The notes beneath the pieces were generated by a model. The model did not search any database, had not been told where the DNA came from, and was given only the letters and a program-made list of their open reading frames with translations. A program made the position numbers and the translations under genes. From Branchiostoma floridae (lineage: Eukaryota > Chordata > Leptocardii > Amphioxiformes > Branchiostomatidae), in the NCBI RefSeq assembly GCF_000003815.2, contig NC_049992.1, forward strand, positions 6,547,081 to 6,611,080: DNA of 64,000 nucleotides, given 5' to 3'. How positions within the stretch are numbered: the stretch's first letter is position 1; each line of letters opens with the position of its first letter. Positions 39,066-63,488 of this stretch are shown here, one piece after another.

Positions 39066-39796
39066 AGTGCTGGAAAAATAGACCATGGGGGTTTCAGTGT
39101 TGGACAGAGATTGGTCCAGCGCTGAAGCTGCTTAATATTTAGTAATGTATAGGCTATTTCGTCTATTCGTCGTGTCTATGTGTTTATATGTGGGTACGGG
39201 TCACAGCACCAACAAGAGCTGCCTGTGATCCACGTGTATTGTACTGTTTACAATAGTGACCAATCAAATCAAATGGCTAGCACTACTACCGAAACATGCA
39301 ATCAAAGGTTATCTATCTTAGGTTGTCATAGGTTGCGAAGAGAGCGAGTGAAAAATTATAATCCGATGCAAGAGTGACTTTGACTTTAAATCCACAATTC
39401 CGTTGAAAACTTTCAAAGAGAAATATGATTGACATACTCACTCGCTCGAACAAAAAAAAAAAACAACAACAAAAAAACTGATACCAGATGTTATTTCTGT
39501 TGCAACATCAAACGGAATTTCTGTGATTTTGTAATCTCTCTACTTCATATTTTCCTCGTAAGTGGCTCACAATGTAGCAAAAACCAAGGCACATTTTTAG
39601 AAATACGTGGCGGACGTGGCCTACCCCCCCCCCCCACACACACAAACGTACGGACAAATTGCACGTACGGCGGGCTGTGCCCTTAACTTTGTGCAGTGTC
39701 CGAAAGACACGTGAGAGGTTAAACGAGAGGTCAGAGGAGGCGTGGTTTTAACACGAGTTCCTTCACCTTTACAGGTGATCAAGGTTAAAAGTGGTA

Positions 39797-40611: not shown

Positions 40612-41696
40612 GTGTGTGTGTGTTGGGGGGGGGGGGGCGTTCGCACCAAATCGATCAACTGGCATAACCTCTCCTCTTCATAACCTTACATGCACCACGA
40701 TGTGACAAAGATCAATGCACGTGCCTCGGGGTACAAGACATTTTAACTAAGCACGCATAGCCTTTAGCAGCATCTGTATAGGTGAAAACGTGAGATACTT
40801 GTTATAACAACGTTACAATAGAGGAGTGTTTAAACCACACCGCTATGACCTCTTGCGTAACCTCTCATGTGCCTTCCAGGCTCATACAGAATGTCCCGAT
40901 GTAACCTTAAAGTTTACCAACGGTTGTTACCAATATAACACAAACCGTGTGATACGCCTGGTATCTATTTTTAAGGCACTATAAAGTAGGCCAGGTAAAG
41001 TACTTTGCGATTAACATTCAGTTACCATATACGAGTACATTTGTAGAACCAGATAACACACCTTACTACTTCTATCCAGGTGGCATATAGGGTCAGATTA
41101 AATACCTTACGCCCTCCCCTCTCTGTACCCTTCATTAGTTTTGTAGATGGTATCGCCTCAATCTTTGTAATAATCTTTGTACCTCAACGAAAAAAAAATT
41201 TAGTTTGAAAGGCATAAACGCCAAGGTTTTCAGAAACTCAAGGTGATAAAAGATTTAGAGCCAGTGATAACTTAAAAGACGGTGATCTGTATTATTTCTT
41301 TTCATATTCTCTTTTCTGGTACCATCCTCTGGCGACGCTAACTAGCGATGGTACTTATATGTGCACGTTTTTGGCACAGACAATTAGAGGCAAGACGCTT
41401 TAACATGGAAACGTGTGAAATAACGTGATTTACGTTGATTGACAAACAGGATTTTACAGTACATTTGTTCCATTGTTGCACATCAAAGAGGGCATATCAG
41501 ACGTAACTGATGATTGGGCATTTTTTTAATTGCTGGACATTTTTGATTGGTTGAGCTGAAGCCTTCACCTTACCAAAGCTCCTCCCTGAATTCTACCCCA
41601 CGTTACTTTCACCAACCATAGAACTGCGTTCACTTACTACACAATAATGCGGAGAAATTTCCTTTAAAGGCATAAGAAAATTTGCATACGACGTGG
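40110..41696. other. Intergenic, with a (GT)n/G-run microsatellite at 40566-40637
   Basis: TGTGTGTGTG with a G-run (GGGGGGGGGGGG) lies at 40566-40637. Two similar short segments (GGTAGTAACCTTAACTATGG near 40130, and AACCTTAAAGTTTACCAACG near 40900, each followed by AAACCGTGTGA) suggest an old duplication. No gene. Confidence 0.45.
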
Positions 41697-41801
41697 TATA
41701 AATTTCTGAAACTGGCCACTAAACACCAGTGCGCCCCGGTACCAGAGAAGACAACAAGACTTCAGACAGACTTTCTGTGTGCAGCGAACTGAACAAATAA
41801 G
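41697..41801 (+). promoter_or_regulatory. Possible TATA promoter and 5' UTR exon of the LamG gene
   Basis: TATAAATT at 41697-41704 is followed about 25-30 nt later by a plausible start region. A purine-rich leader then ends AACAAATAAG|GTGTGT at 41801/41802. If spliced to the acceptor at 43055, the first coding exon would follow. Inferred from arrangement only; the donor is not strong. Confidence 0.3.
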
Positions 41802-42372: not shown

Positions 42373-43055
42373 TATTATGCAAATGTATGTTTAGAGGTGA
42401 GAGTAGGTAAATCAAATTTGTATGCAGCTTGAACGTTTCATGATTAGTAGCACAAATCTGTTTTGTTACACCATGAGATGGTTTACCATGCATGTTTGTA
42501 ATACAAATAAATACAAACAAACCCATTTGCCGTGTAATGTATAGAACCCGTTTTCAGATGAATACTTAAACCCCTGACTCTTTCCAATAGATCGTCTTCC
42601 CAACTAACATGTACGGTGGCTTCTTTTATCACTCATTTTTCTATGATAGATAATCTAAGGGTTTGAAGGTCATGTAAAGTTCGCTCGTCACCTGCGAAAT
42701 AGCTGTTATATATACCCGTATATAAGTTTTTATTCGGTTTGAAATTCAACTTCGGCGTATATCGCCCAGCCAAATCATGTCTTAGTCAACTAAGGAATTT
42801 TAAAAATCATGACGCAGTTGAACCGATTACAATCTGTCTTACCTGTTAACCTGTTGTACGACGAATTCTAAGCTAAATGCTACTAATAGTACTATCAACT
42901 GATTGCCAGTCGAGCTAAGACCTGCCTTTTTTACGTCGTTCGTCATGATAATGTCAGCAGTATCACAAGCAAGCTGTGATGCTTATCGACCTCACATTTG
43001 ACATGATACTTCGGAGGTTAAGCTTCAATAGTTCACATGTGACCTCCCGCGTCAG

Positions 43056-43099
43056 AGTTGGAACCGTTTGACAGCTCAATGCCTCAGGATGACGGATGG
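43056..43099 (+). CDS. LamG gene, putative initiating exon
   Basis: Acceptor CGTCAG at 43050-43055, donor TGG|GTACGTG at 43099/43100. From the donor onward the intron is homologous to the introns that follow every exon E (GTACGTGTGACCTCACATGC), which strongly supports the donor. ATG at 43079 gives MPQDDGW in phase 0 into module 1. The open frame extends upstream to a TGA at about 43040, so a non-initiating reading is possible if the acceptor is right. Confidence 0.5.
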
Positions 43100-46000
43100 G
43101 TACGTGTGACCTCACATGCGGCTCTCCCTGTCAGAAGTAGAGCTTTGACAACCAAAACGTTTGCCTCGGGGTGCCCGCATCTAGCCAAGGCCACCTGGCT
43201 CCATATGTTCTACTTGTTGATTGTCTTGTTCTTCTGTTACAATGACTGTGAAACTATCAAATCATACGCGGATAACTTAATGTTTTTTTGGTGGAGATGT
43301 TCATTTGATTCGAAGCTCAGATTTTGTGAGCTCTGTGTTATCTTTTGAAACAGCTTCATTGCGCCACCATATTCCTTTGTTAAGATCTAACATTTGTGTT
43401 CTGAAAAAGAATTGAATACAATACTTTTTTCTATTTACAATTTGATCCGTGTTCACCATAGTGTTGGAAGAAAGGTTAGCATTATATTTATGATCACTAA
43501 CAACAGGGATACGCTTTCATGAAAACGGTTTGTCCCATTAGATGCATCATCAACTAATAAAAATACTGCAACTTGCAAAATGTGGTTCTCCAATGTTATT
43601 CTGTGTTGTTGTAGATGGCGTCTGGACTAGTCGGTCACTGGCCACTGAATTCTAAACATGGCGCCCGTGACGTCAGCGGCTATGGTAATCACGGCGTTCA
43701 GTTCGACACGGGGTTGGCGCAGGGGCCGGGGGGAGAGACTGATGTCGATGGAGCATTCTACTTCAAAGGAGCTGTTGGTAAACAATTATAGTTCTTTTGA
43801 ATGTATTATAGTCTTGCAACATCTTTGATTCTGTGGGGCACACATGACGCGGTGAAAATCCACATGTCTTCTGTTTAATAACTGTTGTTAGATTTGACAA
43901 AAGCAACGTGACCCTCAACATTCCACACACAGGTGATGCCAGATCCAAGTTGTAGATTGTGAATGTTTTAACCAACATGAATTTACTCCTCGGCATGAAC
44001 ATGAAGAAAACAAACTGTAAATGATCCAGTAAAAAAAAAACATTACAACATGCAACGTTACTTATGCTTTATGTAATTTATTTTTTTAATACCGAAGGCT
44101 CTAGGATCGAGTTTCCCAACAACGGAGCCCTGGCCCCAACATCCAACATGACCATGCAGGCCTGGGTCTACCCGGAGGGGCTAGCCGTCTCGCCCATCTT
44201 CAGCTACCAAACGGACCTGAAGAACGATCTCTACAAATATGGAGTCACCTTTTGGTTCCATAACACTGAAAGCAAGCTTTCTGCACAGTGAGATTTATTT
44301 CTCGTCACGAGATACTTTTTCGTCACGTACCCTTCTATAGGCTATCTATCCGAACTCATTGGGAGGCATATGTCTGTCTGTTTCTGTTTCTGGTATGTAA
44401 GGTCACTGTAAGTTTGAAAAGACCCTCTGGATTGAGAGAAGTGGAATATATTCTGGTCCATATAGTAGGTCACATAGTGGTTGCATGAGTAAAAAATCAA
44501 AGAGGACAACTGAAAGAAAGGAGAAATTAGTTTAGAGATGGATGTACAGAAATGTAATTGACCCGAATTAGGACTTTTATTGCGTAATTAATGATCTTAT
44601 TATTATTTCTTATGTGGTATTTTTTGGCATGACCAGCCCCGGGTTAATTTTAAGTCGGATTTAAAATCATCTTGGTAACTAATAGCCACTGTACTATGTG
44701 ACCTGTCCGTGAGAGGTACCCCGCCGGGACAAATTTGGGGCTTTGGGGCCAGCCAGAGCTACATCCCCTACGGGTACCGCTACAAATATGAGCAAAACAT
44801 AGCTAAGGATGTGGTTGCATTTCAGTTCTTTTTATTTCAATGTCTGCAGATTCGTTGACCAGGGTGGGAAATCATCAGCAGAAGTCAAAGCGGATGTGAT
44901 GACGGACGGAGAGTGGCAGTTCGTGACGGCCACCTACAGCAGTAAGACAGGCCTGGTGAAGCTGTATAGGAATGCCGAGGAGGTACAATGCCATTCCAAA
45001 TCATTATACTATACGTTTCTCTCATTTTTTTTATTCCACATTTAACACAACTGCTGACTGTGCAAACAAAACAATTTTTGGTTTGATATTCTTGATTTAT
45101 ATTTGCTGGATGGTTTGAATACTTTTGTTTGTTGAATAAAAGAAAAACCTTTGCCTTCACCTTCGGCATGGAAACTATGTTTTCGGTTGCTTATCTCTCT
45201 TCTCTTCTGTGTGTCCGTCCGTGAAGACGATTACTCAAGGATGCATCGGCGGATTGTCTTGATATTGGGGCAAGTTTTTATGAAACCAACAAATGTTTAG
45301 TTTTTGCCAGGTTATGTTTCACCAGGTTAACATCAATACGTTTATAAAATGTCTCCATGCAGGTTGCCTCCGAAGAAGTAGGGGTTCTGGATCTGGCCAC
45401 CAAGTATCCTGTGTGCATGGCCGGCAAACCGGCAGACGTCAATGGTAAAGAGGACAAGCGCTGCTTCAAGGGGCGTATTGCTCACATGCAGGTACAGCTT
45501 GTCTCGATCCTCAACTTTTCTTGTCCTGCTGAGTCCATATATATATACAGGTTGCACATCTATAATGCTTGTACTCGTATGTGTGTCCAGTATCTTTACG
45601 GGTTTGGGGTATTTCTCACTAAAATGCGGCATACCGCAGCAAACAGAATCATACCGAGAAGTAAATCTGCAGCAGCAGCACTGAATAGATCAAGTTTAGC
45701 GGGACAAGATTTAGAAAAAATCCATATCCACTTTTAGCAATGATGCTGAAAGTTTTAAAAAGAGTATCAATTTATAGTTGATAGTATGAATATATATATA
45801 CAATATACTGCTTTTCCCTCAGGTGTACAACACCGCCCTGACCCAGGAGGAGATCAAGGAAGTCATGGACCGTACCAGGGGGGTACGTGTGACCTCACAT
45901 GCGGCTCTCCCTGTCAGAAGTAGAGCTTTCTCACACGAAACGTTTGCTTCGGGGTCGCCACATCTAGTCAAGGCCGCAGAACTTCATACGTCTTACTTGT

Positions 46001-49000
46001 TGACTGTCCTGTTTCTCTGTTACAATCATGACCGAACATCTAACAACTAATATGTGGATAACTTAGCTCGGATTTCGGTCTCTGTGTTATTCGTTCCTTT
46101 TGAATAGAGCACATAGACTAGTAACTTCATTGCGTCACCATAATTATAGTAGCTAAGAATGTGTCAAGAAAAAGAATAGAATGCAATCTTGTTCTTCAGA
46201 GGATGTCGGTTTAGATCTAACAACTGAAGTATTTGAACCCAGTAGAACCATCGTTAACTACTATATGTGCTGTCGGTTGCAAATGTAATTGTCGAATGTT
46301 ATTCTGTGTTGTTGCAGATCGCGTCTGGACTAGTCGGTCACTGGCCACTAGATTCCAAACATGGCGCCCGTGACGTCAGCGGCTATGGTAATCACGGCGT
46401 GCAGTTCGACACGGGATTGGCACAGGGACCAGGGGGTGAGACTGATGTCGATGGAGCATTCTACTTCAAAGGAGCTGTTGGTAAACATTTTAAAACACAT
46501 TATAGTCTTATCATAGAAGTCCATCTGTTTTAGTAGTAATCGTAGTATAACGCTTAAATTTCTTCCAACTCAAAGGTATACACGGATCAATTCTTTAACG
46601 ACCACTGTCACCTTCTTCAGTAGAAGGCGACAGTGATCGTTGAAAATTTGATCCATATGTACCTTTGTGTTGAAAGAACGTTGACTATATTATAGTCTTG
46701 CCACACCTCTGATACTGTTGAATGGACCGTATGACACATGGAGCAGTGAAACCCCACATTTATTCGGTTAACTGATTTAAAAGTCTACAAAGGCATCATC
46801 ATCGCCAATATTCCACACACATGTGATGCGAGGTTTACAGCAAGTTATACATTAATATTGTAGATATTTTAAACAACATGAATCAAAGTACTCCTCGGCC
46901 TTAGGCAACAACATCAAGAACGAACTGTACAATGCTCCACCATCTAAAAAAAGGAAATGTTTAAATATGCAACGTTACTTTTGCTTATGCAATTGCTGTT
47001 GTGTTGAAAACCGAAGGCTCTAGGATCGAGTTTCCCAACAACGGAGCCCTGGCCCCAACATCCAACATGACAATGCAGGCCTGGGTCTACCCGGAGGGGC
47101 TAGCCGTCTGTCCGATCTTCAGCTACCAAACGGACCTGAAGAACGATCTCTACAAATATGGTGTCACCTTTTGGTTCCATAACACTGCAAGCAAGCTCTC
47201 TACACAGTGAGATATTTCTTCGTCACGTAGAAGAACTTAATTGCACGACAATTGTACATGATACAATATATGGCAACAGCCATTACATAAAGTACAAAAT
47301 CGAGGTATAGGATAAAGCTTAACAACCTAGTTAACATAACTAAAGGGCTAACATAATTCTCTGAGATAGTAATACAATGAAGTAGGCTAATCATCAGTTT
47401 GGGTATTCTTTCTAATAGCATAACGGTCCTTGATATATTTACCTATTATTGCATTATCGGAGTTCTGATATCTAAAGATATATACAAATTTGTTAAAAAT
47501 ATGACCAAAGCATAGCCATGAGTGTTGTTGCATTTATTGTTTTTATTTCAATGTCTCCAGATTCGTTGACCAGGGTGGGAAATCATCAGCAGAAGTCAAA
47601 GCGGATGTGATGACGGACGGAGAGTGGCAGTTCGTGACGGCCACCTACAGCAGCAAGACAGGCCTGGTGAAGCTGTACAGGAATGCCGAGGAGGTTCCAT
47701 GTCATTCAAAATCATTATAACAATACGTTTCCCTCATTTACCTTCGGCATGGGGACTATGTTTTCGGTTGCCTTTCTCTCTTTGTGTATCTGTCCGTGAA
47801 GACAATTACTCAAGGATGCATTGCTGGATTGTCTTGATATTGGGAAAGTTTTGATCAAACAACAAATGTTTAGTTTTTCCTGTTTGTGTTTTATCGGGCT
47901 AACATCAGGACGTTTATGAAATGTCTCCATGCAGGTTGCCTCCGAAGAAGTTGGGGTTCTGGAACTGGCCACCAAGTATCCTGTGTGCATGGCCGGCAAA
48001 CCGGCAGACGCCAATGGTAAAGAGGACAAGCGATGCTTCAAGGGGCGTATTGCGCACATGCAGGTACACCTGGTCTTGATTCTAAACTTTCCTTATCCTG
48101 TTGAGTCCATATATACACAGGTTGCACATATATAATGCCTGTACTCGTATGTGTGTCCAGTATCTTTACGGGTTTGGGGTGTTTCTCACTAAAATGCGGC
48201 ATACCGCAGCAAACAGAATCGAACGGAGAAGTAAATCTGCAGCAGCAGCACAGAATAGGTCAGGTTTAGCGGGACAAGGTTGAGGAAAAATCCATATCCA
48301 CTTTTAGCAATGATGCTGGTGAGCTTTAAATAGATTATCAATTTAAAGTTGATGGCATAAATATATATACAATATACTGCTTTTCCCCTCAGGTGTACAA
48401 CACCGCCCTGACCCAGGAGGAGATCAAGGAAGTCATGGACCGTACCAGGGGGGTACGTGTGACCTCACATGCGGCTCTCCCTGTCAGAAGTAGAGCTTTC
48501 TCACACGAAACGTTTGCCTCGGGGTGGCCTCATCTATTCAAGGTCGCAGGACCTCATACGTCCTACCTGTTGACTGTCCTATTCTTCTGCTACAATCGTG
48601 ACTGTACATCTAACAATTAATATGTGGATAACTTAGCTTTGGTCTCTGTGTTATTCATTACTATTGAACAGAACACAAAAACTAGTAACTTCATTGCGTC
48701 ATCATATTTATAGTCGCTAAGAATGTGTCAAGAAAAAGTCTTTGAATAGAATGCAATTTTGTTCTTCAGAGGATTTCGGTTTAGATCTAACAACTGAAGT
48801 ATTTGAACCCAAAAGAACCATCGTTAACTACTATAGGTGCTGTCGGTTGCAAATGTAGTCTCCAATGTTATTCTGTGTTGTTGTAGATGGCGTCTGGACT
48901 AGTCGGTCACTGGCCACTAGATTCCAAACATGGCGCCCGTGACGTCAGCGGCTATGGTAATCACGGCGTGCAGTTCGACACGGAGATGGCACAGGGGCCG

Positions 49001-52000
49001 GGGGGAGAGACTGATGTCGATGGAGCATTCTACTTCAAAGGAGCTATTGGTAAACATTTTAAAACACATTATAGTCTTATCATAAAAGTTCATCTGTGTA
49101 AGAAGTAATCGTAGTATAATGCAAAACTTTCTTCCAACTCAAAGGTATACACGGCCGGATCAAATTTTTAACGACCACTGTCACCTTCTTCAGTAGAAGG
49201 CGACAGTGATCGTTAAAAATTTGATCCATATATACCTTTGTGTTGGAAGAACGTTTAGCATTGTACTATATTATAGTCTTGCCACACCTCTGATACTGTT
49301 GAATGGACCGTATGACACATGGAACAGTAAAACCACACATTTATTCGGTTAGCTGATTTAAAAGTCTACAAAGGCATCATCATCGCCAATATTCCACACA
49401 CATGTGATGCGAGGTTTACAGCAAGTTATACATTAATATTGTAAATATTCTAAACAACATGAATCAAAGTACTCCTCGGCCTTGGGCAACAGAATCAAGA
49501 ACAAACTGTACAATGCTCCACCATCTAAAAAAAGGAAATATTTAAATATGCAACGTTACGTTTGCTTATGCAATTGCTGTTTTGTTGAATCCCGAAGGCT
49601 CTAGGATCGAGTTTCCCAACAACGGAGCCCTGGCCCCAACATCCAACATGACAATGCAGGCCTGGGTCTACCCGGAGGGGCTAGCCGTCTGTCCGATCTT
49701 CAGCTACCAAACGGACCTGAAGAACGATCTCTACAAATATGGTGTCACCTTCTGGTTCCATAACACTGAAAGCAAGCTTTCTACACAGTGAGATATTTCT
49801 TCGTCACGTAGAAGAACTTAATTGCACGACAATTGTACATGATACAATATATGGCAACAACTATTACACAAAGTATAAAATCGAGGTATAGGATAAAGCT
49901 TAACAACCTAGTTAACATAACTAAAGGGCTAACATAATTCTCTGAGATAGTAATACAATGAATTAGTTTCGGTATTCTTTCTAATAGTAGAACGGTCATT
50001 GATATATTTGCCTATTTTTGCATTATGGGAGTTCAAATATATCTTAAGATATATAAACATTTGTTACAAATATGACCAAACCATAGCTATGGATGTGGTT
50101 GCATTTAATTTTTTTAAATTTCAATGTCTCCAGATTCGTTGACCAGGGTGGAAAATCATCAGCAGAAGTCAAAGCGGATGTGATGACGGACGGAGAGTGG
50201 CAGTTCGTGACGGCCACCTACAGCAGCAAGACAGGCCTGGTGAAGCTGTACAGGAATGCCGAGGAGGTGCCATGTCATTCAAAATCATTATAACTATACG
50301 TTTCCCTCATTTTCCGCATAAAACACAACTGCTGACTGTGCAAAAAAACACTTTGCTTTTTGGTTTGATATTATTTCATACCTTCTTCTTTTCTACTTGC
50401 TGGATAGTTTTCATACTTTTGTTTTTGTTGAATAAAAAACCCTTTGCTTTTACCTTCGCCATGGGGACTATGTTTTCGGTTGCTTTTCTCTCTTCGTGCG
50501 TCTGTCCGTGAAGACGATTACTCAAGGATGCATTGGCGGATTGTCTTGATATTGGGGAAAGTTGTGATGAAACCAACAAATGTTTAGTTTTTGCCTGGTT
50601 GTATTTCATTGGGCTAACATCAATACGTTTGTGAAATGTTTCCATGCAGGTTGCCTCCGAAGAGGTTGGGGTTCTGGAACTGGCCACCAAGTATCCTGTG
50701 TGCATGGCCGGCAAACCGGCAGACGCCAATGGTAAAGAGGACAAGCGCTGCTTCAAGGGGCGCATTGCTCACATGCAGGTATACCTTGTCTTGATTCTAA
50801 ACTTTCCTTGTCCTGTTAAGTCCATATAGATACAGGTTGCACATATATACGAGGGGTGATCAATAAGTTCTCGGCCTCACCAAGAAATAATAAGGACAAC
50901 TCAAATTTTCATGCACAACATCATAGTATGAAGCCTTTTATCAATACCCACCAAATTTCAAATCATTGCAGTGATTACTTTACAGGCATTCGTTTTTGGC
51001 AAATCAGAAGGTAAGTGGCGAGAAAAAAGTGGTGTGAATTGTGATCAGACATGTGTGTGTCGAGTTCCCCATGCCGTAAATTAAGAAAAGACATTGTCAA
51101 GATATTTGATAATGATTCTCTTCCTTTTTCAAGCAAAAAAAATGGGTGTCTGCCTTCCAGCAGCGCAAATTGACCCGCACACTCAGGTCAGGTCAATTGT
51201 CCACGTTTTTTTCCTTCTCCCTTACCTAACATTACTGGGTGTCGCCTGCAAAGTAATGATCACAATAATTTGAATTTTGGTACATATTTATATAAGACTT
51301 TATACTTGACATTTATGCTTCGAAATCTGAGCTGTGCTTATTATTTCTCGGTAAAACCGAGGACTTATTGATAATCCTACGTACACGTATAAAGTCCTGT
51401 ATAAATGTGTACCAAAATTCAAATTATTGTGATCATTACCTTGTAGGCGACACCCAGTAACATTAGGTAAGGGATAACGAAAAAAAATGTGGACAATTGA
51501 GCTGCCACCTGAAGTGTACGGGTCAAATTGTTTGATCACACTTCACCCTTCTTTTTCTCGCCACTTACCTTCTTATTTAGAAAAAACGAATGCCGGGAAA
51601 GTAATGACTCCAATGATTTGTAATTAGGAGGATATTGATAAAAGGCTTCGTACTACGAAGTTGTGCCTCAAAGGCAGACTTGTGCTTGTCATTTATAGAT
51701 GAGGCCGAGGACTTATTGATCACCCCTCGTAATGCCTATACTCGTATGTGTGTCCAGTATCTTTACGGGTTTGGGGTGTTTCTCACTAAAATGCGACATA
51801 CCGCAGCAAACAGAATCAAACGGAGAAGTAAATCTGCAGCAGCAGCACAGAATAGGTCAGGTTTAGCGGGACAAGGTTGAGGAAAAATCCATATCCACTT
51901 TTAGCAACTATGCTGATGAGTTTTAAATAGATTATCAATTTAAAGTTGATGGTATAAATATATATACAATATACTGCTTTTCCCCTCAGGTGTACAACAC

Positions 52001-55000
52001 CGCCCTGAGCCAGGAGGAGATCAAGGAAGTCATGGACCGTACCAGAGGGGTACGTGTGACCTCACATGCGGCTCTCCCTGTCAGAAGTAGAGCTTTCTCA
52101 CACGAAACGTTTGCCTCGGGGTGGCCTCATCTAGTCAGGCCGCAGAATTTCATACGTCCTACTTGCTGACTGTCCTATTCTTCTGTTACAATCATGACTG
52201 TGCATCTAACAATTAATATGTGGATAACTTAGCTCAGATTTTGGTCTGTGTGTTATTCATTACTATTGAACAGAACACATAGACTAGTAACTTCTTTGCG
52301 TCATCATACTTATAGTAGCTAAGAATGTGTCAAGAAAAAGAATAGAATGCAATTTTGTTCTTCAGAGGATGTAGAATTAGATCTAACAACTGAAGTATTT
52401 GAACCCAATGGAACCATCTTTAACTACTATATGTGCTGTCGGTTGCAAATGTAATTGTCCAATGTTATTCTGTGTTGTTGTAGATCGCGTCGTCTGGACT
52501 AGTCGGTCACTGGCCACTAGATTCCAAACATGGCGCCCGTGACGTCAGCGGCTATGGTAATCACGGCGTGCAGTTCGACACGGGGTTGGCACAGGGGCCA
52601 GGGGGAGAGACTGATGTCGATGGAGCATTCTATTTCAAAGGAGCTGTTGGTAAACAATTTCAAAACACATTATAGTCTTATCATAGAAATCCATCTGTGT
52701 TAGCAGTAATCGTAGTATAATGCTTAAATTTCTTCCAACTCAAAGGTATACCGGATCAAATTTTGATTGACCACTGTCACCTTCTCCAGTAGAATGTGAC
52801 AGTGCTCGTTGAAAATTTGATCCATATATACCTTTGTGTTGGAAGAAAATTTAGCATTGTACTATATTATAGTCTTGCCACACCTCTGATGCTGTGGAAT
52901 GGACCGTATGACACATGGAACAGAGAAACCGCACATTTATTCGGTTAGCTGAATTAAAAGTCTACAAAGGCATGATCATCGCCAATATTCCACACACATA
53001 TGATGCGAGGTTTACAGCAAGTTATACATTAATATTTTAAATATTTTAAACAACATGAATCAAAGTACTCCTCGGCCTTAGGCAACAACATCAAGAACAA
53101 ACTGTACAATGCTCCACCATGTAAAAAACAAGAAATGTTTAAATATGCAACGTTCCTTTTGCTTATGCAATTGCTGTTTTGTTGAATCCCGAAGGCTCTA
53201 GGATCGAGTTTCCCAACAACGGAGCCCTGGCCCCAACATCCAACATGACAATGCAGGCCTGGGTCTACCCGGAGGGGCTAGCCGTCTGTCCGATCTTCAG
53301 CTACCAAACGGACCTGAAGAACGATCTCTACAAATACGGTGTCACCTTTTGGTTCCATAACACGGAAAGCAAGCTTTCTACACAGTGAGATATTTCTTCG
53401 TCACGTAGAAGAACTTAATTGCACGACAATTGTACATGATACTATATATGGCAACAACTATTACACAAAGTACAAAATCGAGGTATAGGATAAAGCTTAA
53501 CAACCAAGTTAACATAACTAAAGGGCTAGCATAATTCTCTGAGATAGTAATACAATGAATTAATTTCGATATTCTTTTTAATAGCAGAACGGTCCTTAAT
53601 ATATTTGCCTATTTTTCCATTATGGGAGTTCAAATATATCTAAAGATATATAAAAATTTGTTACAAATATGACCAAACCATAGCTAGGGATGTGGTTGCA
53701 TTTAATCTTTTTTTAAATTTCAATGTCTCCAGATTCGTTGACCAGGGTGGGAAATCATCAGCAGAAGTCAAAGCTGATGTGATGACGGACGGAGAATGGC
53801 AGTTCGTGACGGCCACCTACAGCAGCAAGACAGGCCTGGTCAAGCTGTACAGGAATGCCGAGGAGGTACCATCTCATTCAAAATCATTATAACTATACGT
53901 TTCCCTCATTTACCTTCGGCATGGGGACTATGTTTTCGGTTGCTTTTCTCTCTTTGTGCGTCTGTCCTTGAAGACAATCACTCAATTGATCAAGGATGCA
54001 TAGGCGGATTGTCTTGATATTGGGGAAAGTTTTGATGAAACCAACAAATGTTTATTTTTTGCCTGGTTGTATTTCATCGGGCTAACATCAATACGTTTGT
54101 GAAATGTTTCCATGTAGGTTGCCTCCGAAGAGGTTGGGGTTCTGGAACTGGCCACCAAGTATCCTGTGTGCATGGCCGGCAAACCGGCAGACGCCAATGG
54201 TAAAGAGGACAAGCGCTGCTTCAAGGGGCGTATTGCTCACATGCAGGTACACCTTGTCTTGATTCTAAACTTTCCTTGTCCTGTTTAGTCCATATATATA
54301 CACGTTGCACATATATAATGCCTGTACTCGTATGTGTACATATAGTATATACAGTACATACAGTATCCATATCCACTTTTAGCAATGATGCTGATAAGCT
54401 TTAAATAGATTATCAATTTAAAGTTGATGGTATAAATATATATACAATATACTGCTTTTCCCCTCAGGTGTACAACACCGCCCTGACCCAGGAGGAGATC
54501 AAGGAAGTCATGGACCGTACCAGGGGGGTACGTGTGACCTCACATGCGGCTCTCCCTGTCAGAAGTAGAGCTTTGTCACACGAAACGTTTGCCTCGGGGT
54601 GGCCTCGTCTAGTCAAGGCCGCAGCATTTCATACATCCTACTTGCTGACTGTCCTTTTCTTCTGTTACAATCACGACTGTGCATCTAGTAATTAATATGT
54701 GGATACCGTAGCTCAGATTTTGATCTCTGTGTTATTCATTACTATTGAACAGAACACATAGACTAGTAACTTCTTTGCGTCATCATACTTATAGTCGCTA
54801 AGAATGTGGCAAGAAGATGAATAGAATACAATTTTGTTCTTCAGAGGATGTAGGATTAGAACTAACAACTGAAGTACTTGAACCCAATAGGACCATCTTT
54901 AACTACTATATGTGCTGTCGGTTGCAAATGTAATTGTCCAATGTTATTCTGTGTTGTTGTAGATGGCGTCTGGACTAGTCGGTCACTGGCCACTAGATTC

Positions 55001-58000
55001 CAAACATGGCGCCCGTGACGTCAGCGGCTATGGTAATCACGGCGTGCAGTTCGACACGGGGTTGGCGCAGGGGCCAGGGGGAGAGACTGATGTCGATGGA
55101 GCATTCTACTTCAAAGGAGCTGTTGGTAAACATTCTTAAAACACATTATAGTCTTATCATAGAACTCCATCTGTGTTTTACTTAGCAGTAATCGTAGTAT
55201 GATGCTTAAATTTCTTCCAACTCAAAGGTATACACGGATCAAATTTTAGACGACCACTGTCACCTTCTTCAGTAGACTGCGACAGTGATCGTTGAAAGTT
55301 TGATCAATATATACCTTTGTGTTGGAAGAACGTTTAGCATTGTACTATATTATAGTCTTGCCACACCTCTGATACTGTTGAATGGACCGTATGACACATG
55401 GTGCAGTGAAACCCCACATTTATTCGGTTAGCTGATTTAAAAGTCTACAAAGGCATCATCATCGCCAATATTCCACACACATGTGATGCGAGGTTTACAG
55501 CAAGTTATACATTAATATTGTAAATATTTTAAACAACATGAATCAAAGCACTCCTCGGTCTTGGGCAACAACATCAAGAACAAACTGTACAATGCTCCAC
55601 CATCTAAAAAAAGGAAATGTTTAAATATGCAACGTTACTTTTGCTTATGCAATTGCTGTTTTGTTGAATCCCGAAGGCTCTAGGATCGAGTTTCCCAACA
55701 ACGGAGCCCTGGCCCCAACATCCAACATGACAATGCAGGCCTGGGTCTACCCGGAGGGGCTAGCCGTCTGTCCGATCTTCAGCTACCAAACGGACCTGAA
55801 GAACGATCTCTACAAATATGGAGTCACCTTCTGGTTCCATAACACTGCAAGCAAGCTTTCTACACAGTGAGATATTTCTTCGTCACGTAGAAGAACTTAA
55901 TTGCACGACAATTGTACATGATACAATATATATCAACAACTATTACACAAAGTACAAAATCGAGGTATAGGTCAAAGCTTTACAACCTAGTTAACATAAC
56001 TAAAGGGCTAACATAATTCTCTGAGATAGTAATACGACGAATTTGTTTCGGTATTCTTTCTAATAGCTGAACGGTGCTTAATATATTTGCCTATTTTTGC
56101 ATTATGGGAGTTCAAATATATCTAAAGATATATAAAAATTTGGTACAAATATGGCCAAACCATAGCTATGGATGTGGTTGCATTTAATTTTTGTTTAATT
56201 TCAATGTCTCCAGATTCGTTGACCAGGGTGGGAAATCATCAGCAGAAGTCAAAGCGGATGTGATGACGGACGGAGAGTGGCAGTTCGTGACGGCCACCTA
56301 CAGCAGCAAGACAGGCCTGGTGAAGCTGTACAGGAATGCCGAGGAGGTACCATGTCATTCAAAATCATTAAAACTATACGTTTACGTCATTTTCCGTATA
56401 AAACACAACTGCTGGCTGTGCAAAAAACACTTTGCTTTTTGGTTTGATATTATTTCATACATTCTTGTTTTGTACTTGCTGAATGGTTTTCATACTTTTG
56501 TTTTGTTGAATAAAAAACCCTTTGCTTTTATCTTCAACACGGGGACTATGTTTTCGGTTGCTTTCCTTCCTTTGTGCGTCTGTCCGTAAAGACGATTACT
56601 CAAGGATGCATTGGCGGAATGTTTTGATATTGGGTCAAGTTTTGATGAAACCAACAAATGTTTAGATTTTGCATGGTTGTGTTTCATCGGGCTAACATCA
56701 ATACGTTTGTGAAATGTTTCCATGCAGGTTGCCTCCGAAGAAGTTGGGGTTCTGGATCTGGCTACCAAGTATCCTGTGTGCATGGCCGGCAAACCGGCAG
56801 ACGCCAATGGTAAAGAGGACAAGCGCTGCTTCAAGGGGCGCATTGCTCACATGCAGGTACACCTTGTCTTGATTCTAAACTTTCCTTGTCCTGTTGAGTC
56901 CATATATATACAGGTTGCACATATATAATGCCTGTACTCGTATGTGTGTCCAGTATCTTTACGGGTTTGGGGTGTTTCTCACTAAAATGCGACATACCGC
57001 AGCAAACAGAATCAAACGGAGAAGTAAATCTGCAGCAGCAGCACAGAATAGATCAAGTTTAGCGGGACAAGGTTGAGGAAAATCCATATCCACTTTTAGC
57101 AATGATGCTGATGAGCTTTAAATAGGTTATCAATTTAAAGTTGATGGTATAAATATATATACAATATACTGCTTTTCCCCTCAGGTGTACAACACCGCCC
57201 TGACCCAGGAGGAGATCAAGGAAGTCATGGACCGTACCAGGGGGGTACGTGTGACCTCACATGCGGCTCTCCCTGTCAGAAGTAGAGCTTTCTCACACGA
57301 AACGTTTGCCTCGGGGTGGCCTCATCTAGTCAAGGCCGCAGGACCTCATACGTCCCACTTGTTGACTGTCCTATTCTTCTGTTACAATCACGACTGTGCA
57401 TCTAGCAATTAATATGTGGATAACTTAGCTCAGATTTTGGTCTCTGTGTTATTCATTACTATTGAACAGAACACATAGACTAGTAACTTCTTTGCGTCAT
57501 CATACTTATAGTCGCTAAGAATGTGTCAAGAAGAAAAATAGAATACAATTTTGTTCTTCATAGGATGTAGGATTAGAACTAACAACTGAAGTACTTGAAC
57601 CCAATAGGACCATCTTTAACTACTATATGTGCTGTCGGTTGCAAATGTAATTGTCGAATGTTATTCTGTGTTGTTGTAGATGGCGTCTGGACTAGTGGGT
57701 CACTGGCCACTAGATTCTAAACATGGCGCCCGTGACGTCAGCGGCTATGGTAATCACGGCGTGCATTTCGACACGGAGATGGCACAGGGGCCAGGGGGAG
57801 AGACGGATGTGGATGGAGCATTCTACTTCAAAGGAGCTGTTGGTAAACAATAGTTCTTTTGAATATATTATAGTCCTGCAACATCTTTGATACTGTGGGG
57901 CAGACATGGCGCGGTGAAAATCCACATGTATTCTGTTTAATAACTAGTGTTAGATTTGACAAAAGCAACGTGACCCTCAGCATTCCACAAACAGGTGATG

Positions 58001-61000
58001 CCAGATCCAAGTTGTACATTATGAATGTTTTAACCAACATGAATTTACTCCTCGGCATGAACATGAAGAAAACAAACTGTAAATGATCCGTTTAAAAAAA
58101 AGACAAATTACAAACATTACAATATTCAACGTTACTTATGCTTTACATAATTCATTTTTTAACACCGAAGGCTCTAGGATCGAGTTTCCCAACAACGGAG
58201 CCCTGGCCCCAACATCCCAAATGACAATGCAGGCCTGGGTCTACCCGGAGGGGCTAGCCGTCTGTCCGATCTTCAGCTACCAAACGGACCTGAAGAACGA
58301 TCTCTACAAATACGGAGTCACCTTTTGGTTCCATAACACTGCAAGCAAGCTTTCTACACAGTGAGATTATGTTTTCGTCACGTACCCGTCTATAGGCTAT
58401 CCATCCTAACTCATTGGGTGGTATCTGTCTGCCTGTCTGTTTGTGTTTCTGGTATGTGAGGTCACTGTAAGTTTTTTGACGGATGCACAGATGTAACGTT
58501 TGCCAATAAGACTATAATCGCGTAGATAATGATAAAATCATTATTTATTGTGTGGTAATGTTGGGCATGGCCGGGTTCCGGGTTGATTTTAAGCCGGATT
58601 TGAAATCAACCATGGACTTGGTAACAAATAGCCTCCGTGACCTGCCCGTGAGAGGTACCCCGCTGGGACAACTTTGGGGCCAGCCAGAGCCACATCCCCA
58701 ACGGGAAGCAGTACAAGGAGAAGAACTTTATTGCACGACCATTGTACATGATACAATGTATGGCAATAACTATTACACAAACTAAAAAATAGAGGTATAG
58801 GATAAAGCTTTAGAACCTAGTTAACATAACGATAAGGGCTAACATGATTCTTTGAGATAGTAATACAATGAAGTAGGCTAATCATCAGTTTCTGTATTCT
58901 TTCTAATAGCAGAACGGTCCTTGATATATTTACTTATAATTGCATTATCGGAGTTCTGATATCTAAAGATATATACAAATTTATTTAAAATATGATCAAA
59001 GCATAGCCATGAGTGTTGTTGCATTTCATTTTTTTTTTTATTTCAATGTCCCCAGATTCGTTGACCAGGGTGGGAAATCATCAGCAGAAGTCAAAGCTGA
59101 TGTGATGACGGACGGAGAGTGGCAGTTCGTGACGGCCACCTACAGCAGTAAGACAGGCCTTGTCAAGCTGTACAGGAATGCCGAGGAGGTACCATGTCAT
59201 TCAAAATCATTATAACCATACGTTTCCCTCATTTACCTTCGTCATGGGAACTATGTTTTCGGTTGCTTTTCTCTCTTTGTGTGTCTGTCCGTGAAGACTA
59301 TTACTCAAGGATGTATTGGCGGATTGTCTTGATATTGGGGAAAGTTTTTATGAACCTAACAAATGTTTTGTTTTTGCCTGGTTGTGTTTCATCGGACTAA
59401 CATCAACACCTTTATAAAATGACTCCATGCAGGTTGCCTCCGAAGAAGTTGGGGTTCTGGAACTGGCCACCAAGTATCCTGTGTGCATGGCCGGCAAACC
59501 GGCAGACGCTAATGGTAAAGAGGACAATCGCTGCTTCAAGGGGCGTATTGCTCACATGCAGGTACATCTTGTCTCGATCCTCAATTTTCCTTGTCCTGTT
59601 GAGTCCAATATAGATACATGTTGCACATATATAATGCCTATACTCGTATGTGTGTCCAGTATCTTTACGGGTTTGGGGTATTTCTCACTAAAATGCGGCA
59701 TACCGCAGCAAACAGAATCAAACGGAGAAAAACATCTGCAGCAACAGAATAGGTCAAGTTTAGCAAGATAATGTTTAGGGAAAATCCATATCCACTTTTA
59801 GCAATGATGCTGATGAGATTTAAATAGGTTATCAATTTAAAGTTGATGGTATAAATATATATACAATATACTGCTTTTCCCTCAGGTGTACAACACCGCC
59901 CTGACCCAGGAGGAGATCAAGGAAGTCATGGACCGTACCAGGGGGGTACGTGTGACCTCACATGCGGCTCTCCCTGTCAGAAGTAGAGCTTTCTCACACG
60001 AAACGTTTGCCTCGGGTGGCATCATCTAGTCAAGGCCGCAGAATTTCATACGTCCTACTTGCTGACTGTCCTATTCTTCTGTTACAAGCATGACTGTGCA
60101 TCTAACAATTAATATGTGGATAACTTAGCTCAGATTTCGGTCTCTGTGTTATTCATTACTATTGAACAGAACACATAGACTAGTAACTTCTTTGCGTCAT
60201 CATACTTATAGTAGCTAAGAATGTGTCAAGAAAAAGAATAGAATGCAATTTTGTTCTTCAGAGGATGTAGAATTAGATCTAACAACTGAAGTATTTGAAC
60301 CCAATGGAACCATTTTTAACTACTATATGTGCTGTCGGTTGCAAATGTAATTGTCCAATGTTATTCGGTGTATGTTGTTGTAGATCGCGTCGTCTGGACT
60401 AGTCGGTCACTGGCCACTAGATTCCAAACATGGCGCCCGTGACATCAGCGGCTATGGTAATGACGGCGTGCATTTCGACACGGGGTTGGCACAGGGGCCG
60501 GGGGGAGAGACGGATGCGGACGGAGCCTTCTACTTCAAAGGAGCTATTGGTAAACATTTGTTGTTGTTGTTGTTTACATATTACAGTCTTATCATGGAAG
60601 CTCATCTGTGCTGGTAGTAATCACAGTAGAATTTAAAGTATACGCGGATTAAATTTACAACAAACACTGGCGACAATAATAGTTGAAACTTTGATCAGTG
60701 TATACCTTTGTGTTGAAAGAAAGTTGAGCACTGTACTATATCATAGTCTTGCCACATCTTTAATACTGTGTGGCATACATTTAATGACTGCATGATACAT
60801 GGAGCGGTAAAAATCCACATGCACTTGGTTTAATAACTGATTATTAATTCTACAAAAAAGTTCGTAACACAGGTGGTGCCAGGTTTACACCAAATTGTAT
60901 ATGGAACTTGTAAATACTCCTCGGCCGTATGCAACAAAATCAAGGAAATAAACTGTATACAGCACAGAGTAGCTGTCACTAAACTCCGGATTAGTTGCCA

Positions 61001-63488
61001 CAAGTTACATATCGAAACTGGAAGGCACAACCGCACCCCTCTGCAGCATAGAGTCTGCCAATTTTGTGATCTACAACATGTAGAAGATGAACAGCATTTT
61101 ATTTTACACTGTAAATTGTACCATAATGAACGGATTGTGCTTTATGAATATATCAGAAAAGAGTTCCCATATTTTGAACATCTTAATGCAACGGATAAAT
61201 TTCTATTTTTGATACGCCTAGACAAACCCTGTATATCAAACATTATATGTTCTTATATCTACATCTGTACAAAGAAGCGAGAAGATGTCGACCATCCTGT
61301 TAGCTTAGTACCTTCAACTAGTTAAATTGTATCCTGTTTTTTTTTTCATATGTTTGTTATTCTGTTATCAGTCATGTCTGTTATCAGTGACCTGTACCTA
61401 GCCCGTCGAGGCATGAATGTACAATAAAGGTCTTTCATTCATTCATTATCCATTTGAAAAAGAAAACTTTAAAACATACAACGTTACATGCTTTACTTCA
61501 TGTAATTGTTCTTTTGTTGAATACCGAAGGCTCTAGGATCGAGTTTCCCAACAACGGCGCCCTGGCCCCAACATCCTACATGACCATGCAGGCCTGGGTC
61601 TACCCGGAGGGGCTAGCCGTCTCACCCATCTTCAGCTACCAAACGGACCTGAAGAACGATCTCTACAAATACGGAGTCACCTTTTGGTTCCATAATACTG
61701 CAAGCAAGCTTTCTGCACAGTAAGGTTTTTTTTCTTTGCATACCTTTCTTAATAATATATAGGTTGTTTATCTTAACTCCGTGGATAATATCTGTCTGCC
61801 TGTTTGTGATTCTGGTATGTGAGGTCACTGCCGTTTTTTAAAAGAACCTTTGGATAGGGTGAAGGAAAATAAGAATAAGTTCTGGTCCTTATAACAGTTC
61901 ATATGAATCTGAATGGGGTAAAAAAAATCAAGGAGGACAACCGAAAGAAAGGAGAATGAAATCCAATGTTTTTCAGCAGAAATTAGTTTAGAGGCGGATG
62001 TACACAGATGTAACGGACGCGAATTATGACTTTTATTGCGTAATTAATAATGAAATTATTACTTCTTGTGTGGTAATTTGGGGCATGACCGGGCCCCGGC
62101 TTACTTTCAAGTTGGATTTCAAATCAACTAGGGACTTGGTAACAAATAGCCGCCGTGACCTGCCACTGAGAGGTACCCCGCCGGGGCAACTTTGGGGCTT
62201 ATGGGCCAGTCAGAGCTACATCCCCTACGGGTAGCGCTACAAATATGACCAAAGCATAGCTATGGATGTGGTTGCATTTCATTTTTTCTTATTTCAATGT
62301 TCCCAGATTCGTTGACCAGGGTGGCAAAACATCGCCTGAACTCAAAGCAGAAGTGATGACGGACGGAGAGTGGCAGTTCGTGACGGCCACCTACAATGCC
62401 ACCACAGGCCAGGTCAAGCTGTACAGGAATGCCGAGGAGGTACGATACGGTATCATTCAAAATCATAATAACTATACGTTTCCCCTTTTCCCCCGTATAA
62501 AACACAGCTGCTGGGCTGTACAAAATCTCGCTTCATCTTAGTTTCCAAGCAGACGTTTTAGTTGGATGAAAAAAAAAAGAATTTGGCCAAATAGGGATAA
62601 ATAAGTTGCCATGGAATTTCAATCAGTCACTACTAGGCCAATTAACTCCTACTAGGCTTTTATTCCTAGAAGTCCCCTATTACTGTTCGGCCAGACCGGA
62701 GTCTGGTAGAAACTAGCCTCTTCTATTACCTTCGACAAGGGGGCAAATAAAGTAATCTAAGTTTAGGTACCCTATCCGCTGTTTTGAACCGCAGGGACGG
62801 ATTTTGTTTCGGAGTTTGAAAAATATAACTCAATGAGATGTTACCAAATTAACCTTATATGATGAATCACTGTTGTTATATTTTTGTCATGTTGTTTCAT
62901 TTTATGCCTGGAATTGTTACATTGGGTTGACATCAAGGCCTTTATGAAATGACTCCATGCAGGTTGCCTCCGAAGAAGTTGGGGTTCTGGAACTGGCCAC
63001 CAAGTCTCCTGTGTGCATGGCCGGCAAACCGGCAGACGCTAATGGTAAAGAGGACAAGCGCTGCTTCAAGGGGCGCATTGCTCACATGCAGGTACACTTT
63101 GTCTCGATCCTCAACTTAACAACCCTTGTCTTACTGAATCCGTATATACACGGGTTGCACACATGTATAATACCTGCTGTAGGTCGGCCCTGAATCTTTA
63201 CAGGTTTGGGGTATTTCTACGTACGTGCGGCATACTGCAGGTAACCGCATATACAGTGGAGAATAAATCTGCAGCAGCAGCACAGAATAGGTCCTGTTTA
63301 GCGGGACAAGGTTTAGAAAAAAATCCATATCCACTTTTAGCAATGATGCTGATGAGCTTTCAATAGACTTTCAATTGAAAGTTGATGATACATACAATAT
63401 ACTGCTTTTCCCTCAGGTGTACAACATCGCCCTGACCCCGGAGCAGATCAAGGAAGTCATGGACCGTACCAAGAAAGGGTACTACTAG
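43056..63488 (+). CDS. Gene of seven tandem LamG-like (jellyroll) domains
   Basis: One initiating exon (43056-43099, ATG at 43079, MPQDDGW) is followed by seven copies of a five-exon module (A-E) detailed in separate entries. All phases agree: A ends phase 1, B phase 2, C, D and E phase 0. The product is about 1,587 aa, ending at TAG 63486-63488. Each module reads GLVGHWPLDSKHGARDVSGY, TMQAWVYPEG, DGEWQFVTATYS, GLVKLYRN, RCFKGRIAHMQVYNTALTQE: the LamG-like/Laminin_G_3 fold, a beta-sandwich that usually binds glycans or proteins outside cells. PVCMAG and KRCFKG supply a likely disulfide. No signal peptide or membrane segment is visible, so either an upstream exon is missed or the protein is intracellular. 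The initiating exon is the least certain part; the 35 module exons are firm. Confidence 0.93.
43615..45882 (+). CDS. LamG module 1
   Basis: Exons A 43615-43777, B 44098-44287, C 44850-44982, D 45363-45491, E 45823-45882 (675 nt, 225 codons). Starts MASGLVGHWPLN. B has AVSPIF and the NMT glycosylation site; D has VLDLATKYP and PADVNGK. The B-C intron lacks the LINE tail found in modules 2-6. It carries instead an older segment (GACCAGCCCCGGGTTAATTT ... GAGGTACCCCGCCGGG) shared with modules 6 and 7. The C-D intron is the long form. Confidence 0.95.
46318..48452 (+). CDS. LamG module 2
   Basis: Exons A 46318-46480, B 47017-47206, C 47561-47693, D 47935-48063, E 48393-48452. A starts with ATC (IASGLVGHW). 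B has AVCPIF, introducing a third cysteine, and NTASKLST. The A-B intron holds the hairpin element (46562-46676) and the B-C intron the LINE tail (47228-47500). The C-D intron is the short form. The C donor is GAG|GTTCCA rather than GTACCA. Confidence 0.95.
46562..46676. mobile_element. Short hairpin MITE in LamG intron A-B, module 2 copy
   Basis: CTTCCAACTCAAAGGTATA and its inverse bound a stem-loop whose inner arms are GACCACTGTCACCTTCTTCA and AGAAGGCGACAGTGATCG. Parallel copies lie at 49131-49249, 52732-52845 and 55214-55328. A decayed one lies near 60640-60722 in module 7. None in modules 1 and 6. Confidence 0.8.
47228..47500 (-). mobile_element. LINE C-terminal/3' UTR fragment in LamG intron B-C, module 2 copy
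   Basis: The minus-strand frame reads NAIIGKYIKDRYAIRKNTQ then stop, aligning with the end of the LINE ORF at 26913-28310 (NARIGKYIKDCFAIRKSN). The 3' UTR runs to GTGCAATTAAGTTCTTCTAC. The same insertion is in modules 3, 4, 5 and 6. Confidence 0.8.
48887..52049 (+). CDS. LamG module 3 (with a MITE in its last intron)
   Basis: Exons A 48887-49049, B 49598-49787, C 50134-50266, D 50650-50778, E 51990-52049. A starts ATG and has FDTEMAQG and GAI. B has AVCPIF. E has TALSQEE in place of TALTQEE and RTRG from AGA. The D-E intron is lengthened by an 885-bp mariner-like element at 50848-51732. The C-D intron is the long form. Confidence 0.95.
49131..49249. mobile_element. Hairpin MITE, module 3 copy
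   Basis: Homologous position and sequence to 46562-46676. The arms are well preserved (GGCCGGATCAAATTTTTAAC). Confidence 0.8.
49808..50070 (-). mobile_element. LINE fragment, module 3 copy
   Basis: Same insertion and boundaries as 47228-47500. Confidence 0.78.
50848..51732. mobile_element. Mariner-like element(s) in LamG module 3 intron D-E
   Basis: Bounded by CGAGGGGTGATCAATAAG and TATTGATCACCCCTCG, with TA on each side. The other modules show the uninterrupted site CACATATATAATGCCT, so the TA duplication is directly visible. Inside, a second inverted pair around 51220-51300 and 51395-51470 (CAAAATTCAAATTATTGTGA and inverse) indicates two copies nested or fused head to head. No intact transposase. 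Confidence 0.85.
52484..54527 (+). CDS. LamG module 4
   Basis: Exons A 52484-52649, B 53195-53384, C 53733-53865, D 54118-54246, E 54468-54527. A starts ATC GCG TCG TCT (IASSGLVG), one codon longer than modules 1-3, a change shared with module 7. The D acceptor reads CATGTAG where the others have CATGCAG. The D-E intron has lost the block GTATCTTTACGGGTTTGGGG onward present in all other modules. Confidence 0.95.
52732..52845. mobile_element. Hairpin MITE, module 4 copy
   Basis: Homologous to 46562-46676, with a few arm mismatches (TAGAATGTGACAGTGCTCGT). Confidence 0.8.
53408..53665 (-). mobile_element. LINE fragment, module 4 copy
   Basis: Same insertion and boundaries as 47228-47500. Confidence 0.78.
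54963..57244 (+). CDS. LamG module 5
   Basis: Exons A 54963-55125, B 55677-55866, C 56214-56346, D 56728-56856, E 57185-57244. A starts ATG. B has AVCPIF and NTASKLST; D has VLDLATKYP as in module 1. Carries both the hairpin element (55214-55328) and the LINE tail (55878-56140). The C-D intron is the long form, as in modules 1 and 3. Confidence 0.95.
55214..55328. mobile_element. Hairpin MITE, module 5 copy
   Basis: Homologous to 46562-46676 (AGTAGACTGCGACAGTGATC). Confidence 0.8.
55878..56140 (-). mobile_element. LINE fragment, module 5 copy
   Basis: Same insertion and boundaries as 47228-47500. Confidence 0.78.
57680..59945 (+). CDS. LamG module 6
   Basis: Exons A 57680-57842, B 58171-58360, C 59056-59188, D 59433-59561, E 59886-59945. 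A has GVHFDTEMAQG. B has TSQMTMQ, so the NMT glycosylation site of modules 1-5 is lost. D has KEDNRCFKG, where the others have KEDKRCFKG. The A-B intron lacks the hairpin and matches module 1. The B-C intron holds both the older segment (58552-58710) and the LINE tail, the key intermediate state. Confidence 0.95.
58711..58985 (-). mobile_element. LINE fragment, module 6 copy with ancestral intron flank
   Basis: Same insertion as 47228-47500. Here the older intron sequence up to CAGTACAAGG precedes the LINE 3' end (AGAAGAACTTTATTGCACGA). In modules 2-5 that older sequence is deleted up to the same point. Confidence 0.8.
60384..63488 (+). CDS. LamG module 7 (terminal, most diverged) with stop codon
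   Basis: Exons A 60384-60549, B 61530-61719, C 62307-62439, D 62963-63091, E 63417-63488 (TAG). A has IASSGLVG, DISGYGNDGVHF and TDADGAF. B has TSYMTMQ (glycosylation site lost) and AVSPIF as in module 1. C is the most changed exon: GGKTSPELKAEV and YNATTGQVKLY, adding an NAT glycosylation site. D has KSPVCMAG. E has NIALTPEQIKEV and ends RTKKGYY before the stop. The A-B intron contains a private LINE fragment, and the C-D intron a private TIR repeat. Confidence 0.95.
60950..61450 (+). mobile_element. LINE C-terminal fragment with 3' tail in LamG module 7 intron A-B
   Basis: Open frame to 61325. RVAVTKLRISCHKLHIETGR and CQFCDLQHVEDEQHFILHC match the zinc-knuckle end of the other LINEs. The 3' UTR has AATAAA at about 61422 and a (TTCA)n tail, CATTCATTCATT. 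Same sense as the host gene and only in module 7, so inserted after that module separated. Confidence 0.8.
62540..62714. mobile_element. Short TIR repeat in LamG module 7 intron C-D
   Basis: Begins AGTTTCCAAGCAGACG and ends AGTCTGGTAGAAACT. The interior AATTTGGCCAAATAGGGATA matches the copy at 9169-9395. Confidence 0.65.

Follow-up and report, generated by a model that had tools for sequence, protein, structure and literature searches.

Multi-domain proteins grow by module duplication, and the founding event is seldom readable. Among the closest described systems, the kringle IV-2 (KIV-2) array of LPA (apolipoprotein(a)) is a few-kb multi-exon module repeated in frame, whose copies share sequence by duplication or conversion, and DMBT1 carries an array of tandem SRCR binding domains in one gene. 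For LPA, from 1 to >40 KIV-2 copies per allele are reported (PMC4378929), and DMBT1 is described as an innate binding protein whose SRCR number is variable between alleles (PMC4851238). Here, we describe a locus of the lancelet Branchiostoma floridae, contained in a window of 64,000 nucleotides (the whole stretch of DNA analysed), where we likewise found in-frame tandem multi-exon modules and exchange between their copies. Among the papers listed in literature searches, no account of this locus was found.

A preliminary description of this window had proposed seven copies of a five-exon module at 43615-63488, joined in one frame and encoding a single long multi-domain protein. The modules were borne out by a splice model and by exon-wise tblastn-type matches, and the reading that we favour, with a probability of roughly 0.72, is that the locus would be one gene for a chain of about 172 kDa with seven Laminin_G_3 domains and little else, originated by a founding join, exchange between modules and selection. 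The features of the window are listed below; module exons (A to E) are those of the splice model.

41560-41801, plus strand, candidate promoter and non-coding first exon (TATAAAT at 41697; no ATG in 41725-41800; donor-like AATAAG/GTGTGT)
43056-43099, plus strand, possible small exon 0, of uncertain exon status (acceptor-like CAG at 43053-43055, by eye; ends ...MPQDDGW in frame, with donor GTACGTG)
43098-43614, plus strand, intron upstream of exon A of module 1 (A1), donor GT at 43100; homologous to all six E-to-A introns by blastn and alignments
43615-45882, plus strand, module 1: A 43615-43777, B 44098-44287, C 44850-44982, D 45363-45491, E 45823-45882; 225 codons, ATG first, also supported by tblastn-type matches
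46318-48452, plus strand, module 2: A 46318-46480, B 47017-47206, C 47561-47693, D 47935-48063, E 48393-48452; 225 codons
48887-52049, plus strand, module 3: A 48887-49049, B 49598-49787, C 50134-50266, D 50650-50778, E 51990-52049; 225 codons
52484-54527, plus strand, module 4: A 52484-52649, B 53195-53384, C 53733-53865, D 54118-54246, E 54468-54527; 226 codons
54963-57244, plus strand, module 5: A 54963-55125, B 55677-55866, C 56214-56346, D 56728-56856, E 57185-57244; 225 codons
57680-59945, plus strand, module 6: A 57680-57842, B 58171-58360, C 59056-59188, D 59433-59561, E 59886-59945; 225 codons
60384-63488, plus strand, module 7, terminal: A 60384-60549, B 61530-61719, C 62307-62439, D 62963-63091, E 63417-63488; 229 codons without the stop
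60837-61325, plus strand, open reading frame within the module 7 A-B intron, similar to the C terminus of a non-LTR retrotransposon protein (compared by eye with the frame at 26913-28334)
63477-63482, plus strand, GGGTAC of the terminal exon, proposed as microhomology with the GGGTAC at 43098-43103

Elsewhere in the window, long open frames at 18843-21011 and 26913-28334 resembled by eye the reverse transcriptase of a non-LTR retrotransposon and its C-terminal part, and an open frame on the minus strand at 17223-17558 resembled a fasciclin (FAS1) domain, also by eye.

The spliced open reading frame comprised 4743 nt from 35 exons, i.e., 1580 amino acids and a stop, opening with exon A of module 1 at 43615 and closing with the stop codon at 63488. 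Of the 70 exon edges, 69 showed AG or GT, and the remaining one was the TAG stop. Introns were in phase 0 before A, 1 between A and B, 2 between B and C, and 0 at C/D, D/E and E/A, and the proposed 0-0 symmetry of the modules was thus supported by the splice model. The distances from one exon A to the next were 2703, 2569, 3597, 2479, 2717 and 2704 bp; the D-E intron of module 3 was enlarged to 1211 nt, and modules 4 and 7 had an extra Ser codon in common. In the exon-wise tblastn-type search, exons A, B, C, D and E were each found seven times and in order, along with weak chance matches. In a repeat search, the families reached 300 nt in length and seven in copy number, at a spacing of about 2.5-3.6 kb; among the 20 families listed of 28, seven copies were seen for three families of 294-300 nt and for another of 162 nt, and such seven-copy families are far beyond chance. 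The frame contained no internal stop, and this speaks against the alternative of separate genes.

Next, the domain class of the protein was assessed. Seven stretches matched Laminin_G_3 with 470 bits in total (E = 1.7e-142), and module 1 passed the PF13385 cut-off with 74.9 bits against 27.6, in a query one residue too long. For pentraxin (PF00354), module 1, the one scanned singly, reached 23.9 bits and stayed below the cut-off of 25, and the 142 bits obtained over seven stretches of the whole protein are a sum over repeats. The pentraxin signature is H-x-C-x-[ST]-W-x-[ST]; by eye, HxCx[ST]W was absent from the module proteins, and the corresponding stretch read GEWQFVTATY. Searches against solved structures gave weak matches, with PTX3 at 6e-5 for a single module, and an S-layer domain protein first at 2.4e-4, pappalysin-1 at 1.9e-3 and PTX3 at 4.3e-3 for a profile of five proteins. 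From its sequence, the module domain appears to be pentraxin-like, of the ConA/pentraxin-like class and sugar-binding type. The spliced protein had no strongly hydrophobic segment (best 19-residue mean 0.79) and contained six N-glycosylation sequons. A pair of cysteines was present in all seven modules and in none of the four paralogues compared, and a third cysteine was found in modules 2-6 only.

To place the array among its relatives, we searched the genome (513,431,437 bp, 431 contigs), and obtained 152 matches; 150 of 189 candidates were scored. Among the matches listed, the nearest exon-sized ones outside the window lay on C3 and C19.

C3:4596479-4601341, minus strand, C3 paralogue with one module
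C19:6942001-7031200, collagen-LamG cluster with eight exon-A matches, seven of them with matches to all five exons

The C3 gene had five exons with the phases of the array, an ATG at the start of exon A and the tail KGGYD before its stop, so layout, phases and tail type were alike and the difference was one module versus seven. Its protein was 60-62% identical to the modules and lacked the cysteine pair, and the synonymous difference (pS) of 0.46-0.54 indicated that the array is young relative to its split from this paralogue. The C3 gene likely shows the ancestral state, as judged from this shared organisation. In a small tree, the modules were separated from the C3 protein and from three proteins of C19; module 7 adjoined the paralogues (support 0.947 and 0.988), and branching among the other modules was weakly supported. 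The C19 genes were also single modules with exon A starting in phase 0 and the five-exon layout of the array, and the two copies read had the tail RSGYK before the stop. Five collagen-like stretches were found as exons upstream of the C19 modules, and this family is presumably extracellular for that reason; in contrast, no collagen-like G-x-y run of five or more (x and y not G) was detected on the plus strand of the window and the 39.6 kb downstream. Two of the C19 gene copies (at 31352 and 68134 of the joined stretch) were nearly identical and had many N runs nearby, possibly representing unresolved haplotypes. Another Laminin_G_3 array was observed at C14:3465407-3524810, with open frames of 100-339 amino acids and 13 of 130 matches. 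The window modules were absent among the open-frame matches listed, presumably because they are split over exons.

The promoter-like block at 41.6-41.8 kb had a similar copy about 4 kb upstream of exon A in C3, 68% identical over 180 nt to that of the array (C14). Nevertheless, its use as a shared promoter specific to these genes was weakened by a genome search that returned at least six further matches of 68-80% identity; the C3 copy was not among the matches listed, and it was closer to a C17 copy (77% over 476 nt) than to the C14 block. When four further copies were aligned with those of C3 and C14, TATAAAT was found in six of six, ATTTGCAT in five and a GTAAGT donor in four, namely the C3, L055, L056 and L058 blocks; the C14 block was without it. 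Collectively, these sequences suggested that the block may be a dispersed promoter-like element, and since it is not unique to the gene, it was used as a candidate promoter only.

If the protein starts at exon A, it would have no signal peptide, and this sits badly with the cysteine pair in seven of seven modules and with the collagen-bearing relatives. In an alternative reading, which we place a little short of even odds, the product would be secreted via an unrecognised signal-peptide exon, as an extracellular multivalent recognition protein of pentraxin or lectin type. The C19 relatives with the same exon layout and upstream collagen-like exons speak for it, as do the cysteines, gained together as a pair, and the six sequons; moreover, the possible exon 0 would run from phase 1 to phase 0, by eye like a C19 collagen exon. 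Crude scans upstream of A1 and in C3 returned a few hydrophobic starts: one at 39145-39189 (MYRLFRLFVVSMCLY), near donor-like sites of phase 0 and phase 1, one at 43205, with a donor in phase 1, and one in the C3 gene, in the interval from its promoter-like block to exon A, where the donor was in phase 2. However, the first of these sits 2.5 kb upstream of the TATA-like site, the second falls inside the intron before A1, and the remaining hits were mostly reading frames of CA repeats. Between block and exon A, C14 and C3 had no common stretch except an 18-nt match (E = 0.25). These scans therefore gave no convincing signal-peptide exon for either gene, and the same scan gave no good hit upstream of the collagen genes on C19, which leaves it without power in either direction. 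The pattern of the cysteine pair is compatible with an extracellular function.

The ends of the modules offered clues to how the array began. The intron upstream of A1 was 80-84% identical to the six E-to-A introns over 180-188 nt by blastn, and the homology opened at its donor, at 43098 in five of the six comparisons and at 43095 in the sixth. The first 47 nt were identical, with the frame open, in the introns at 45883, 48453, 52050, 54528, 57245 and 59946 and in that at 43100; as a whole, the pre-A1 intron, which carries GGGTACGTG at 43098, differed from the E-to-A introns by about a quarter. A coding role for this conserved intron start was discarded: the frame stayed open for 55 codons in four of the six E-to-A introns, but for only 27 and 39 in the other two. 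Exon E of module 7 ended in ACC AAG AAA GGG TAC TAC TAG (tail DRTKKGYY, TAG at 63486-63488), and resembled that of C3, which ended in ACC AAG GGA GGG TAC GAC TAG; both continued after the stop with ATCCTGAyCAACATGCAG/gtac. This sequence was not found in E1-E6, which ended in ACC AGG GGG/GTACGTG (AGA GGG in E3) and lacked a tail of the E7 or C3 type. Since the E-to-A introns are homologous to the pre-A1 intron from the donor on, the founding duplication seems to have swapped a stop-bearing end for a donor.

From the homology at these edges, we infer an ancestral one-module gene in which an intron would have immediately preceded the exon A start codon and exon E would have ended in GGGTAC, one further codon and a stop, as in the C3 paralogue now. 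A tandem duplication with breaks at the first-intron GGGTACGTG and at the GGGTAC of exon E would have removed the tail with its stop codon, and a splice donor drawn from the first intron of the same gene would have taken over that position; the duplicated unit would have reached from 43098 almost to the stop codon. The presence of GGGTAC at both breaks suggests a microhomology join. Nonetheless, an exact join of this kind places exon E in phase 2, and the exact version is weakened by its need for another change of 2 nt; the C3 sequence permits a net 2-base loss by deletion of two single A's. With a net loss of 2 nt near the join, exon E would end on a whole codon and the modules would be fused in frame. 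The unit is of phase 0-0 because exon A opens with the start codon, and this codon may have left a remnant: exon A starts with ATG in modules 1, 3, 5 and 6 and with ATC in modules 2, 4 and 7, and the internal M that opens modules 3, 5 and 6 (I in 2, 4 and 7) would be what is left of it. Further unequal exchange would then have led to the seven modules of this assembly.

The modules had been described as near-identical in exons and introns, and this held for part of the array only, since pairwise intron identity ranged from 57.4% to 98.6% over aligned positions. Whole-unit identity over the aligned positions of the 21 module pairs went from 79.0% (1 versus 7) to 94.9%; modules 2-5 were alike (93.3-94.9%), and modules 1, 6 and 7 carried other intron versions. 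The claim of a recent origin likewise stands for modules 2-5, which differed by 5-7%, slightly above the 3.2-4.2% given for amphioxus heterozygosity in a report that also describes non-crossover tracts of mostly <200 bp (PMC12500494). Modules 1 and 6 had a short A-B intron in common, 93.4% identical; modules 1, 6 and 7 had long B-C introns; and the C-D intron of module 7 was barely alignable. One deletion in the C-D intron, with the same edges, was common to modules 2, 4 and 6, and the E-to-A introns of modules 4 and 7 were 98.6% identical. Accordingly, the nearest neighbour of a module changed along the unit. We then analysed 139 informative sites, all without gaps and with two states, the rarer of which occurred in two or more modules, using 1000 permutations. 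The incompatibility of neighbouring sites was 0.365 versus 0.483 ± 0.013 in permuted data, none of the 1000 being as low, which is a mark of segmental exchange and supports the proposed exchange between modules. Among the 14 pairs listed, the longest shared run was matched by none of 1000 permutations in four of the 21 pairs, namely 3-7, 4-7, 5-6 and 5-7. A two-module higher-order unit was also considered and rejected: the split 2,4,6 was not among the 20 most common site splits, and the shared C-D deletion was therefore read as exchange. Collectively, these data showed a mosaic array built of exchanged segments. The modules at its ends had diverged the most, as is usual in tandem arrays under unequal exchange.

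The coding differences between modules, calculated over 223 codons after removal of the final codons and of the additional Ser in modules 4 and 7, gave pS of 0.040-0.174, pN of 0.002-0.050 and pN/pS of 0.02-0.42 in the 21 pairs. These ratios point to purifying selection that would keep all seven as putative binding modules, and a product so maintained would act by multivalency (avidity) on a repetitive ligand. Within the short exon E, mean pS was 0.000 and mean pN 0.027, and the constraint does not extend demonstrably to this exon. A fuller version, in which the array would be a length-polymorphic recognition protein born of one duplication with a borrowed first-intron donor, with 0-0 units that vary between haplotypes and are kept alike by gene conversion, is put forward as tentative, with the odds somewhat against it.

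The module count itself depends on the assembly. The genome used here appears to be the published B. floridae assembly, which has 19 chromosomal scaffolds and is described as about tenfold Sanger coverage of one diploid animal, with haplotypes assembled apart and then merged by HaploMerger2 (PMC7269912). For this reason the count of seven is not secure, and the number could be partly an assembly product, with haplotypes or reads of repeat copies merged or laid end to end and a true array that is shorter or longer. Some segments are as close as alleles (1.4% difference between the E-to-A introns of modules 4 and 7), and the C19 relatives show two almost identical copies amid many N runs. However, there is no N run in 26881-76306, shifts of one to five modules never gave the block-wise identity of alleles, and the best match outside the locus was 77% identical among the matches listed. 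In addition, all 21 pairs differed by 5-21% over the whole unit, above the heterozygosity given in the amphioxus report (PMC12500494). With every pair beyond the average allelic difference and no allelic block shift, wholesale haplotype doubling is unlikely, and we consider an assembly origin of part of the array improbable overall, at about one chance in four, although the count may be off by one or more modules. The suggestion that module number varies between haplotypes or isoforms is plausible, on a count taken from one merged assembly.

That the locus gives several short transcripts from separate promoters instead of one long mRNA is very improbable: an ATG opens exon A in four of the seven modules, but E1-E6 have no stop of their own, reading past them into the intron meets one only after 27-55 codons, and the promoter-like block occurs once in the 103.6 kb examined.

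We return to the favoured reading, a single gene for seven Laminin_G_3 domains. Its readable origin is the most interesting part of the locus: with the one-module paralogue, an unbroken tail exon and the donor taken from the first intron all present, the path from one to seven domains can be traced nearly base by base. If module number does vary between haplotypes, a highly polymorphic population of an invertebrate chordate would provide a natural range of domain valencies. When compared with known systems, the pentraxins (PTX3, SAP-like) and the LamG region of pappalysin are among the best solved-structure matches to the module, although the match to pentraxins is weak and module 1 falls under their cut-off. 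DMBT1, like this array, has tandem binding domains in one gene, but it is a secreted SRCR glycoprotein, and the lancelet product has no convincing signal peptide in the scans made. The LPA module is a kringle domain of two exons, whereas the lancelet unit is a LamG domain of five exons in a chain without other domains; LPA copy number varies between alleles, and the lancelet array is known from one merged assembly. In kind, the lancelet gene belongs with the in-frame tandem domain arrays of LPA KIV-2 and DMBT1.
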